From positions 1 to 11,314 of the forward strand of contig JAQBNV010000119.1 in the NCBI GenBank assembly GCA_028288395.1: a DNA stretch of 11,314 nt, written 5' to 3'. Position numbers and translations under genes: made by a program. The stretch is from Adhaeribacter sp. (GTDB lineage: Bacteria; Bacteroidota; Bacteroidia; Cytophagales; Hymenobacteraceae). The notes beneath the pieces are model-generated. The model was not told the origin of the DNA. It was given only the letters and a program-made list of their open reading frames with translations, and made no database searches. Positions 7,916-10,970 of this stretch are shown here, in pieces. How positions within the stretch are numbered: the stretch's first letter is position 1; the number at the start of each line of letters is the position of its first letter.

Positions 7916-9139
7916 ATGCTTTACTACTTATTTAATTACCTCGAAGAAAATTTTGATTTTATTGGCGCCGGGGTTTTTCAATATATTTCTTTTCGGGCCG
8001 GTATGGCTACGCTGGTATCGTTGCTCATCGCTATGATTTTCGGCGGGCGTTTGATAAAAATATTACACCGGAAGCAGGTAGGCGAAAGCATCCGGGATTT
8101 AGGCCTGGCTGGGCAAATGGAGAAAAAAGGCACGCCTACCATGGGCGGCGTTATTATTTTGCTCGCCATTCTGGTACCTACGCTGCTTTTTGCCCGGCTC
8201 GATAATATTTATATCATTTTAATGCTGATTTCTACAGTCTGGCTGGGTCTGATTGGATTTTTAGACGATTATATTAAGGTTTTCCGCAAAAATAAAGAAG
8301 GCTTAGCCGGTAAGTTTAAAGTAATCGGGCAAATTGGCCTGGGGCTGATTGTGGGGTACATTCTATTTGTAAGCGATGATGTAGTGGTGCGGCAATATGT
8401 AAACGGTACCACCGGCACCTTATCGGCCGTAGATGCCTCGCCTACTTACCTGGACGTAAAATCTATGATTACGAGCATTCCGTTCCGGAAAAACAATGAA
8501 CTGGATTACTGTACCATGTTTTCGTTTGCCGAACCTATTTTCGGGCAGTGGGCCTGTTTCCTGTATATTCCTTTTGTGATCATTATTATCACGGCGGTTT
8601 CGAACGGGGCCAATATTACCGATGGCCTGGATGGCCTGGCCGCCGGAACCTCGGCTATTATTGGTTTAACCCTCGCGGTTTTTGCCTGGATATCCGGTAA
8701 CACCATTATCGCCGATTACCTGAACATTATGTTTATTCCCAACTCCGGGGAACTGGTAATATTCTGTACGGCCTTTGTGGGGGCCTGTATCGGATTTTTG
8801 TGGTACAACTCCTACCCGGCGCAGGTTTTTATGGGCGATACAGGTAGCCTGGCCATCGGCGGAATTATTGCTGTACTGGCCCTGATTGTGCGCAAAGAAC
8901 TGCTCATTCCTATTCTGTGCGGTATTTTCCTGGTCGAAAATTTATCGGTGATGCTGCAGGTAAGCTATTTTAAATACACGAAAAAGAAATACGGCGAGGG
9001 CCGGCGCATCTTTAAAATGTCGCCGCTGCACCACCATTACCAGAAGGTTGGCTACCACGAATCCAAAATCGTTTCCCGTTTCTGGATTGTGGGTATCATG
9101 CTGGCGATTCTGAGCCTGGCTACTTTAAAACTGAGATAA
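7916..9139 (+). CDS. mraY: Phospho-MurNAc-pentapeptide transferase MraY
   Basis: MraY is the integral membrane enzyme that moves phospho-MurNAc-pentapeptide from UDP to undecaprenyl phosphate, making lipid I. The protein is 407 residues, rich in hydrophobic helices (about ten). Family motifs are KKGTPTMGG (70-78), FLDDYIKV with D117 and D118, [10 protein letters not shown] (D236, D239), [13 protein letters not shown] (D308), and MSPLHHHYQ with histidines 372-374. These cover the aspartates and histidines of the magnesium and uridine site. It is longer than the roughly 360-residue E. coli enzyme because of a loop at about 155-198 that includes a Ser/Thr/Asp-rich segment; this insert is common in Bacteroidota MraY. 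The ATG is 72 nt after murE, preceded by a hairpin and an A-rich leader. Confidence 0.96.
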
Positions 9140-9144
9140 TAGGT

Positions 9145-9169
9145 TTCGTTATTTGTTGTTCGTTATTCG
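9145..9169 (+). repeat. Left heptad array / inverted-repeat arm of the four-helix-bundle unit
   Basis: The segment reads as 7-nt units TTCGTTA, TTTGTTG, TTCGTTA, then TTCG, starting 6 nt after the mraY stop. Bases 9155-9169 (GTTGTTCGTTATTCG) are the exact reverse complement of 9585-9599. Continuing outward to 9145/9609, the whole 25 positions give 23 Watson-Crick pairs, one G-U and one mismatch. Together with the right array it encloses the 128-codon gene. Confidence 0.8.
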
Positions 9170-9180
9170 AAAGTCTAGAA

Positions 9181-9567
9181 ATGAGTAAGCAATATACAGC
9201 GTTAGATGTATGGACGAAAAGCAGAAGCCTTGCGAATAAAATTTATGAAATAACGAAGAGCTTTCCGAAAGAAGAAATATTTGGCTTGACCAGCCAGATG
9301 CGCCGAGCGGCGGTATCAGTGCCTTCTAATATTGCTGAAGGATGTGGGAGGCAATATTCAAAGGATGCTATTCAGTTTTTCTTTGTAGCCAGAGGCTCTT
9401 TATACGAATTAGAAACACAATTATATATTGCCTCGGACCAACGTTATGTTTTACCGGATGAAGCGGCCAAGTGCTTAGAAGAAGTGATCAATTGTAAACA
9501 ATTAATTAATGGCTTTATCAGCTATTACAAGTCATTAAACAGTCGGGAGTTGAACAAGAACCAGTGA
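9181..9567 (+). CDS. Four-helix-bundle protein (TIGR02436, 23S rRNA intervening-sequence/S23 family)
   Basis: The 128-residue protein carries the family pattern: an N-terminal helix with LDVWTKSRSLANKIYEITKSFPKEEIFGL, then TSQMRRAAVSVPSNIAEGCGR (37-57), then FFFVARGSLYELETQLYIA (66-84), and a last helix with a lysine-rich tail. Proteins of this type were first found encoded in 23S rRNA intervening sequences of Leptospira and others. They are related to Avd, the pentameric accessory protein of diversity-generating retroelements. The biochemical role of stand-alone members is unknown, and nucleic-acid binding is an inference from charge and relatives. No reverse transcriptase or rRNA is nearby. 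The gene interrupts the conserved mraY-murD junction. It is about 39% G+C by hand count, lower than its neighbours, and is flanked by inverted heptad arrays, all suggesting acquisition. The start has no Shine-Dalgarno; ATG at 9181 gives the normal family N terminus. Confidence 0.9.
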   Translation: MSKQYTALDVWTKSRSLANKIYEITKSFPKEEIFGLTSQMRRAAVSVPSNIAEGCGRQYSKDAIQFFFVARGSLYELETQLYIASDQRYVLPDEAAKCLEEVINCKQLINGFISYYKSLNSRELNKNQ

Positions 9568-9583
9568 CAGCTTGCAAGCAAAG

Positions 9584-9618
9584 ACGAATAACGAACAACG
9601 ATTAACGAACAACGAATA
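9584..9618 (+). repeat. Right heptad array: five tandem ACGAAYA-like units before murD
   Basis: Five consecutive 7-nt units start at 9584, 9591, 9598, 9605 and 9612. Units 1 and 5 are ACGAATA, units 2 and 4 are ACGAACA, and the middle one is ACGATTA, so the unit order itself is symmetric. The array ends two bases before the murD ATG and so forms its entire immediate leader. Bases 9585-9609 are complementary to the left array at 9145-9169. Confidence 0.85.
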
Positions 9619-9620
9619 AT

Positions 9621-10970
9621 ATGATAGCGATACTGGGAGCAGGCGAGAGTGGAGTAGGAGCAGCTCTTTTGGCAAAAGCCAAAGGGCTATCGGTTTTTGT
9701 ATCGGATATGGGCAGCATTAAGCCGGCTTACAAAGACCAACTGCAGAAAGAAAATATTCCTTTCGAAGAAGGCACGCATTCTTTTGAGCGGATATTGACG
9801 GCCGACGAAATTATTAAAAGCCCGGGTATTCCGGATAAAGCCGATATCATTAAGCAGGCCAAAGCCCAAAATATTCCGGTTATTTCCGAGATAGAATTTG
9901 GCGCCCGTTATTCGAAAGCTAAATTTATTTGTGTAACCGGTACCAACGGCAAAACCACCACCACGCTGTTGACCTATCATTTATTAAAAACCGCTGGTTT
10001 TAACGTAGAGTTGGCTGGCAATATTGGCGAAAGCCTGGCCGCTAAAGTAATAGAAGATACTGCCGAATATTATATAGTAGAGTTGAGCAGCTTTCAGCTG
10101 GACACCATGTACGGGTTTAAAGCCCATATTGCCATCCTGCTGAATATTACCCCGGATCACCTGGACCGCTACGACTATAATATCGGGAATTATGCTCAAT
10201 CTAAGTTGCGCATTACCCAAAACATGGCGCTGACCGATTTTTTTATTTACAACCAGGAGGATGCTTTAATTCAGGAACACCTGGCTGGCATAAATACCCA
10301 GGCCACTTTGGTGCCATTTGGTTTACAACCGGGCGGCAGCGTCCAGGCTTCCTATACCGATAATATCATCTTTACCGAAGTTACCGGAAAACCCGAAACC
10401 ATTGATATTTCGGCTTCTCCTTTAATCGGGAAACATAACCAGTACAATATCCTGGCTGCCGTTACGGCTGCTTTGCTGGCCGGCGCGGAGGCTTTCCGGA
10501 TTGAAGAGGGGCTGGCTACTTTTAAAAATGCCGAACACCGTTTGCAGCCGGTAGGCGAGGCCAACGGCGTTACTTACATCAACGACTCCAAAGCTACCAA
10601 CGTGGAAGCCGTGTGGTATGCCCTGGAAGGAATAAAAAAACCAATTATCTGGATTGCCGGCGGCGTGGACAAAGGCAACGATTACGAAACCCTTAAGCCC
10701 TTGGCCAAAGAGAAAATAAAAGCTTTGCTCTGCCTTGGAAAAGAAAACGAAAAATTTTTCCGCGAATTCCAGAACGTAATTCCGGTAATCGAAGAAACCC
10801 AATCGGTGGATGAGGTGGTGCAAAAAGCCAAGGCCTTGGCCCAGGCAGGCGATGTGGTATTGCTGTCGCCGGCCTGCGCCAGCTTCGATCTGTTTCAGAA
10901 TTACGAGCACCGGGGCCGCAGCTTTGCCGAAGCCGTGCAGAAATGGGTTTTAGACGAAGACAAAAGATGA
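9621..10970 (+). CDS. murD: UDP-N-acetylmuramoylalanine--D-glutamate ligase MurD
   Basis: MurD is the cytoplasmic ATP-dependent ligase that adds D-glutamate to UDP-MurNAc-L-alanine, the step before MurE. Its 449 residues match the family. The N-terminal Rossmann-like domain begins MIAILGAGESGVGAALLAKAKG, the usual Bacteroidota start, supporting the ATG at 9621. The central ATPase domain has the P-loop TGTNGKTT (106-113), AGNIG (132-136), VELSSFQLD (153-161), NITPDHLDRY (175-184), and K195 in YAQSKLRI as the likely carbamylated lysine. The C-terminal domain has GKHNQYN (270-276), EHRLQPV (305-311), NDSKATN (321-327), and LLSPACASFDLFQNYEHRG near the end. In Bacteroidota it normally follows mraY directly; here a 481-nt stretch with the four-helix-bundle gene separates them. 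Confidence 0.97.
   Translation: MIAILGAGESGVGAALLAKAKGLSVFVSDMGSIKPAYKDQLQKENIPFEEGTHSFERILTADEIIKSPGIPDKADIIKQAKAQNIPVISEIEFGARYSKAKFICVTGTNGKTTTTLLTYHLLKTAGFNVELAGNIGESLAAKVIEDTAEYYIVELSSFQLDTMYGFKAHIAILLNITPDHLDRYDYNIGNYAQSKLRITQNMALTDFFIYNQEDALIQEHLAGINTQATLVPFGLQPGGSVQASYTDNIIFTEVTGKPETIDISASPLIGKHNQYNILAAVTAALLAGAEAFRIEEGLATFKNAEHRLQPVGEANGVTYINDSKATNVEAVWYALEGIKKPIIWIAGGVDKGNDYETLKPLAKEKIKALLCLGKENEKFFREFQNVIPVIEETQSVDEVVQKAKALAQAGDVVLLSPACASFDLFQNYEHRGRSFAEAVQKWVLDEDKR

Follow-up and report, generated by a model that had tools for sequence, protein, structure and literature searches.

A four-helix-bundle gene enclosed by complementary heptad arrays between mraY and murD of Adhaeribacter and at other bacterial loci

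The window analysed here, a stretch of 11,314 nucleotides from Adhaeribacter sp., contains genes that we take, judging by their sequence, to be murE, mraY and murD. It raises a simple question: what is a small four-helix-bundle (4HB) gene, bracketed by complementary arrays of 7-nt units, doing between mraY and murD? An initial annotation likened the arrangement to the intervening sequences (IVSs) of 23S rRNA, or to a MITE. Its interpretation is partly supported by our analysis, and the pattern of gene plus heptad arrays is more general than that annotation could see. The best reading of the unit is that it is intervening-sequence-like and lies outside rRNA.

The unit between mraY and murD

The gene order is murE-mraY-unit-murD, with the unit filling the spacer (Table 1). 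Of the 25 arm positions 23 are paired, with no mismatch over the inner 15, and the 3' array is built of ACGAAYA-type 7-mers that recur 14 nt on. The inverted local match of the two spacers scores 21, whereas the best of 2000 dinucleotide shuffles reaches 18. The 25-position inverted repeat described at the outset around the TIGR02436 gene thus stands, with 0 of 2000 shuffles as good, and the bracketing of the 4HB gene by inverted arrays at this junction is confirmed as real. The array does end 2 nt before the murD ATG, as annotated, but the gap from the mraY stop to the 5' arm is 5 nt and not 6 nt. In the minimum free energy (MFE) fold of the sense RNA the arms are base-paired with each other; taken whole, the 511-nt fold has only a slight advantage over shuffles (z -1.8), of which 6 in 100 are at least as stable. 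No transposase lies between the arms among the listed ORFs of at least 80 aa, the 4HB gene being the only one there, which agrees with the initial annotation. The window unit is without terminal repeats or target duplication, and no close empty pair for an empty-site comparison was present among the genomes examined.

Table 1. Features of the mraY-murD junction in the window
Feature	Position	Strand	Basis
mraY, upstream neighbour	7916..9139	+	ORF list; orthologs
5' arm, G/T-rich heptad array, TTCGTTA-type	9145..9169	+	pairs with 9585-9609
4HB gene, PF05635 / TIGR02436, IVP/S23 family, 128 aa	9181..9567	+	profile matches
3' arm, A/C-rich heptad array, ACGAAYA-type	9584..9618	+	repeats in sequence
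murD, downstream neighbour	9621..10970	+	ORF list; orthologs

The family assignment is secure, with 129.5 bits against PF05635 (cut-off 33.8) and 127.3 bits against TIGR02436 (cut-off 24), as originally proposed; the profile search gave no Y1 domain match. Among solved structures, sequence comparison gives a single relative at E<=0.01, PDB 2gsc_A (E=2e-22), the Xanthomonas family member XCC0516, and the predicted model, built from a 58-row alignment, has four helices with a mean pLDDT of 96.6. Over 157 aligned rows, six polar columns (Q39, R42, S46, N50, E53 and E76) show 97-100% conservation. The protein is under purifying selection: dN/dS is a median of 0.088 among Flavobacterium orthologs (643 pairs) and 0.054 between the window gene and that of the same-genus genome G001, a rough value as dS is 1.59 and near saturation. 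Of the 118 Bacteroidota genomes sampled, 88 have IVP/S23 genes, and the literature consulted yielded no function for the family. Excerpts of one paper describe the Xanthomonas protein as a homopentamer and argue that Coxiella probably does not make its S23 protein and can do without it (PMC4990558).

The likeness to rRNA IVSs is borne out by the Coxiella 23S IVS, in which, according to the same excerpts, a 28-bp terminal stem surrounds an S23/4HB ORF with tandem heptamers ahead of its start codon (PMC4990558). The PF05635 protein family, the complementary ends around the ORF and the heptamers before it are common to both, as is approximate size (428 nt there, 474 here). The unit here differs in sitting between two protein genes and in having arms that are heptad arrays with a locus-specific unit. 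As positions 8900-9900 of the window gave no rRNA match and the unit is not inside an rRNA gene, we class it as a variant of the rRNA IVS and not as a member. None of 60 other 4HB loci scanned with Rfam was inside rRNA.

The junction was read in our genome and 29 relatives, which are 30 of the 59 genomes searched, with gene-less hairpins judged by eye. A 4HB gene with ACGAAYA-type heptads is present in 6 of the 30 genomes (one copy, L039, is broken), so it is not at this junction in all relatives; 5 have gene-less inverted heptads of other units, in 10 the spacer is no longer than 36 nt (1 nt in one case), and the remaining 9 have spacers of other kinds. A 4HB gene also lies between mraY and murD in Pontibacter aydingkolensis and in P. 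diazotrophicus, where both arms are built from a different heptad in the latter species. A tree of 75 proteins, poorly resolved at its deep forks, places the five labelled junction proteins close together, and the P. aydingkolensis protein falls in their midst. The junction label requires two changes on this tree, a single change occurring in 0% of bootstrap trees, because the P. aydingkolensis protein, also from the junction, is unlabelled. The survey, the tree and dN/dS are best explained by a junction gene that has been passed down within the family, repeatedly lost and kept under constraint. Other inverted repeats occupy the mraY-murD spacer in other genera (CATCCTGAAAGGATCTT type and CACTGCG heptads; loci L045, L051 and L057), so this spacer tolerates hairpins generally.

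Heptad arrays around 4HB genes and elsewhere

Our own genome has seven family matches, of which two are partial, one (L005) has two internal stop codons, and four (L001-L004) are full. The flanks of the four full copies are inverted, with scores of 21-28, and each locus has its own unit; L003 contains TAACTGA units. For a wider comparison, the first set comprised near-full-length matches only (223, of which 219 were unique with 150-nt flanks; broken and partial copies were dropped) and was reduced to 96 clusters below 60% identity. Of the loci used, 120 were hand-picked among the matches listed, and one homologue search contributed the best 80 of 204 matches.

Flanks of the 96 4HB genes pair with a median score of 20, compared with 10 for mismatched flanks. 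The 99th percentile of mismatched pairs is exceeded by 46 of the 96, by 3 of 147 control ORFs from these loci, and by 2 of the 163 genes of similar size in 800 kb from two genomes. Own flanks are better than every mismatched partner at 38 of the 96, and p<=0.05 is reached at 76, where 4.8 would be expected. Lag-7 identity is 0.39 and 0.42 in 4HB flanks versus 0.28 in control flanks, and identity peaks at lags 7, 14 and 21 appear in the former but not in the latter. A second, unclustered set of 60 loci (27 partial ones dropped) brought the total to 156, or 148 once 8 duplicates are removed. In this second set the picture is like that of the first for the 24 cyanobacterial loci, for the 25 others, of which 8 duplicate first-set loci, and for the 6 plasmid loci, taken from six of 29 plasmid records. 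Of the 148 loci, 115 have 7 as their best period, 24 have 8 and 6 have 9, while shuffled flanks have no period preference, and G exceeds C in the upstream arm in 156 of 173. A 4HB gene enclosed by complementary, locus-specific heptad arrays is therefore an architecture that recurs in several phyla, including Cyanobacteriota.

Heptamers with no assigned cause have been reported in several bacteria. TAACTGA heptamers are described in Beggiatoaceae, cyanobacteria and some Bacteroidetes, in a text that also cites work by Mrazek for heptanucleotide repeats being the most abundant class in many bacteria (PMC4679880, excerpts). They resemble the arrays here in their period of 7, in lying mostly just before start codons in Maribeggiatoa, and in that TAACTGA itself occurs at L003; they differ in being described as direct repeats, with one inverted case (PMC4679880, excerpts). 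GGGAATC-type heptamers of Xanthomonas and Nostoc often form convergent pairs (70 and 75 cases), with the G-rich strand lying just after stops and, in opposite orientation, just before starts, and with aligned ORFs preferred (PMC4692102, excerpts). Convergent heptamer pairs near starts and stops are a likeness to our units, as is the fact that Xanthomonas is the source of the 4HB relative 2GSC; unlike our arrays, these were interpreted as G-quadruplex repeats (PMC4692102, excerpts). The text of PMC4679880 has no match for "four helix" or "S23", and that of PMC4692102 has none for "four helix", "S23" or "XCC0516". Apart from the Coxiella IVS heptamers, we found no paper in open-licence PMC that links heptads with 4HB genes generally.

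Heptad arrays also occur without a gene. In the 800 kb of genomes G007 and G009 there are eight period-7 inverted pairs, six of them gene-less with loops of 9-105 nt; the two with long loops both enclose a 4HB gene, and one gene-less hairpin has an arm in common with a 4HB unit. Two of the four 4HB genes in these 800 kb miss the period-7 criterion, one having an inverted repeat and the other none at the threshold. Heptads are common where the gene is absent, yet their density tracks the gene. We counted triplets of YAACNNN, one pattern family, in 39 relatives, together with the backward-read form; the latter, included to serve as a control, picks up genuine heptads too (CAATNNN units), and both were therefore summed. 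Median density is 2.6 heptads per Mb in genomes with no 4HB gene (n=6), 5.3 with 1-2 (n=12) and 43.4 with at least 3 (n=21). The Spearman correlation between density and 4HB number is 0.71 (p=4e-7; 39 genomes), 0.69 in the window's family (n=25), and 0.65 and 0.64 for each pattern alone. GC does not explain the link, since the partial correlation on GC is 0.67 (the 21 of 39 genomes with the mraY locus). Among eight genomes of the window's genus, the sole 4HB-free one (G005) is at background with 1.3 YAAC triplets per Mb, and the other seven have 18-86. Three of the six 4HB-free genomes (G043, G044 and G048) belong to other families, and two of these three are small, so their low counts could partly reflect distance. 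Some genomes have few heptads despite 4HB genes (G042, 3 genes and 9 matches; G045, 8 and 23; G050, 3 and 23), perhaps because their units differ from the counted pattern. The density link is the strongest hint of a trans role of the 4HB protein on the arrays; it is a correlation, and both quantities could depend on a third factor.

Placement, gain and mobility

Among the 88 of 96 clusters that have both neighbours, 72 units lie sense between two co-directional genes, against a baseline of 44.8% of 627 gene triples from two genomes (p=1e-12); 8 are antisense between co-directional genes and 8 are elsewhere. Same-strand neighbours lie at median distances of 62 and 47 nt. The units are thus placed sense in short operon spacers. 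Insertion into operons of essential genes, suggested in the initial annotation, is seen at mraY-murD, at groES-groEL and between two tRNA genes, the last in an Omnitrophota genome (L356, 1326-1962).

The groES-groEL junction offers a recent gain. In 30 of the 61 genomes of the genus of G083 (Flavobacterium-type, judged by relatives; gene-less hairpins scored by eye), 2 carry a 4HB unit there, with proteins 75% identical and a GCTTTAA-type unit common to both; one of the 28 without the gene has a gene-less hairpin of similar unit. G083 and its relative G331 are 100% identical in DNA over secG, 99% over groES and 98% over the start of groEL, but the spacer is 521 nt in G083 and 82 nt in G331, with about 11 nt before groEL in common. 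In this single pair the old spacer has been replaced with no simple target duplication seen, and the new heptads differ from those formerly there, which means that a gene can bring its arms along. Spacers in close relatives of G083 (L423-L425) hold single GTATTAAG-type arrays with no inverted partner and no 4HB gene. Homing of the gene into a pre-existing hairpin of matching unit was not seen in this one gain.

The MITE-like mobility first suggested is seen in one cyanobacterial family only, and the window gene looks instead inherited with losses. In the cyanobacterium G299, 12 examined loci have closely related copies, most pairwise matches being 96-99% identical. The left end TAACTGACGTTACGCA occurs in all 12, and 10 have its inverted counterpart with at most 2 mismatches. 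In those copies that were aligned at their ends, the terminal repeats lie outside the heptads and the heptads travel with the element; this family is a MITE whose cargo is a 4HB unit. It is dispersed (L371, L397-L406 and L410), with 16-bp terminal inverted repeats, and many copies have, within the gene, an interrupting segment with several different heptad arrays of its own. Common terminal ends among dispersed copies were seen in this family only, copies in our own genome have differing arms, and non-syntenic near-copies elsewhere are rare in the sample (four pairs of at least 70% identity among loci with paired arms).

Several candidate partners of the 4HB gene were considered. Across 118 Bacteroidota genomes, leaving out the sub-cut-off reverse transcriptase and Y1 matches of G116, 4HB number correlates with the number of Y1_Tnp (PF01797) genes (0.61), a correlation equalled in 0 of 5000 within-family permutations (108 of the 118 genomes entered). 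RAYT/REPIN systems, in which a Y1 transposase gene goes with dispersed palindromes, resemble the present arrangement in having a gene with hairpin flanks and many dispersed gene-less hairpins, and repeat density here does track the gene. The 4HB protein, however, gives no Y1 domain match, and Y1 loci in Bacteroidota (39 testable of 40 fetched) as a group lack period 7 in their flanks, which have REP-like palindromes in many cases. Y1/RAYT was accordingly rejected as part of the 4HB system. Load of rve was rejected as a driver, since in the 118 genomes it has no correlation with 4HB number. Reverse-transcriptase copying as a general need was set aside too: 4HB number shows no trend with RVT_1 number (Spearman 0.07), and 25 of 49 genomes with at least 5 4HB genes have no RVT_1 match. 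No reverse transcriptase adjoins the window 4HB gene; the one RVT_1 match of our genome is on contig C6 and the window on C274 of an assembly that is fragmented and 79% complete. The Avd protein of diversity-generating retroelements (DGRs) is a further relative to consider, PF05635 being said to resemble Avd (PMC10053308, excerpts). Besides this frequent absence of RVT_1, the window protein matches both Avd profiles only weakly and below their cut-offs (bAvd 23.9 bits, cut-off 40; NF033474 21.1, cut-off 80). A recognition code between protein and heptad was likewise rejected: proteins 60-70% identical at non-syntenic loci mostly have unrelated units, with a unit similarity of 0.27 against about 0.22 for less related proteins, and 0.41 for syntenic orthologs at that identity, which have also drifted considerably.

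How the arms stay matched

Comparison of syntenic orthologs shows that the arms change together. Whatever the class of protein identity, from 20 to 99%, a gene's own arms pair with a mean score of 22-29, while the score for one ortholog's arm against another's drops from 28 to 11 as protein identity falls; among orthologs more than 80% identical the two are indistinguishable, as expected. Own-arm scores exceed the mean cross score at 85 of 99 loci (p=2e-14). Because own pairing stays high while cross pairing falls, the unit drifts and yet the match persists, and both arms must change together while the unit differs between loci. Selection for a stem in the sense RNA should leave more G-U than A-C mismatches, but the ratio is 195:207, or 75:69 in the strict core, with duplicates removed (208:220 and 78:74 over 156 loci with duplicates kept). 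With no G-U excess, the matching of the arms is probably maintained by something other than RNA folding, and the idea that they are kept because the message folds out finds no support here. The mismatches are as expected of a DNA-level process, and copying of one arm from the other would fit them better.

The whole explanation that we tentatively favour, and to which we give close to an even chance, is an IVS-like unit combined with a process, linked to the 4HB gene, by which heptad arrays are made or maintained. The 4HB protein may bind folded or single-stranded heptad DNA and promote fold-back or strand-switch copying; rewriting of one arm from the other would preserve their match as the unit drifts, and other spacers could acquire new arrays in trans. 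The transcribed hairpin might be cut by RNase III, as in rRNA IVSs, leaving mraY and murD expression unharmed. Against arm copying it counts that the binding and copying activities are ones we infer for the protein, that the link between heptads and 4HB genes is a correlation in one set of 39 relatives, and that gene-less hairpins occur at both the mraY-murD and the groES-groEL junctions. The G083 heptads, which seemingly arrived with the gene, fit transfer of a ready-made unit better than making on site. Also unfavourable are the 4HB-carrying genomes with few heptads, the published argument that the Coxiella protein is expendable (PMC4990558), and the equality of own and cross pairing above 80% identity.

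The main rival to arm copying is processing at the RNA level, in which the arms would be selected as a transcript stem that RNase III cuts, the unit would be spliced or trimmed out, the heptads would come from slippage and the protein would be secondary. There is an rRNA precedent, with RNase III cutting at the first heptamer (PMC4990558, excerpts), and the predominance of sense units, the unit between tRNA genes and the MFE pairing of the window arms all suit it. We nevertheless consider it rather unlikely: it predicts the G-U excess that is missing, 8 of 88 units are antisense between co-directional genes, the whole-unit fold is only slightly better than shuffles, and it leaves the dispersed heptads that track 4HB number unaccounted for. 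Ordinary polymerase slippage, with inversion by template switching and the 4HB gene as an old passenger without a role, would readily explain heptads and hairpins that lack the gene, and agrees with the reported abundance of heptanucleotide repeats (PMC4679880, excerpts). It is improbable in view of the excess of 4HB genes over both control sets above the 99th-percentile score, of the two long-loop pairs in 800 kb that both enclose a 4HB gene, and of heptad densities that follow it.

A non-autonomous element moved in trans by a Y1/RAYT-like or DDE transposase would account for the Y1 correlation, the cyanobacterial MITE family and the gain at groES-groEL. It appears very improbable, since the tested Y1 loci lack period 7, 6 of 49 4HB-rich genomes (at least 5 genes) have no Y1 match, rve shows no correlation, the window unit is without terminal repeats or target duplication, and at groES-groEL the old spacer was replaced. 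The absence of a transposase from the unit had been rightly noted, and the variable presence of units at one junction also supports the initial reading.

Beyond the favoured explanation of this unit, the IVP/S23 family could be the trans-acting factor behind heptanucleotide arrays in several phyla, copying a folded strand into the other arm; this we regard as quite possible, if short of probable. If true, an orphan "ribosomal S23" family would gain a function, rRNA IVSs would be one special landing site, and TAACTGA, GGGAATC and other heptamers would be dialects of one system. The recurring architecture, the joint change of the arms and the tie between heptad density and the gene allow the function of the family and the origin of the repeats to be tested together.

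Some plasmid loci have a further bearing on how the family has been described. A 4HB gene lies between cas6 and cas4 on plasmids of Pseudanabaena galeata and Anabaena sp. 90 (L418 and L422), and the 4HB protein is listed among CRISPR-associated ones (PMC10910872, excerpts). The cas6-4HB-cas4 order suggests why it was so reported, and some associations of the protein, this one for example, may reflect no more than the location of the unit. On a Nostoc edaphicum plasmid (L420), the gene lies antisense between nrdB and nrdA.
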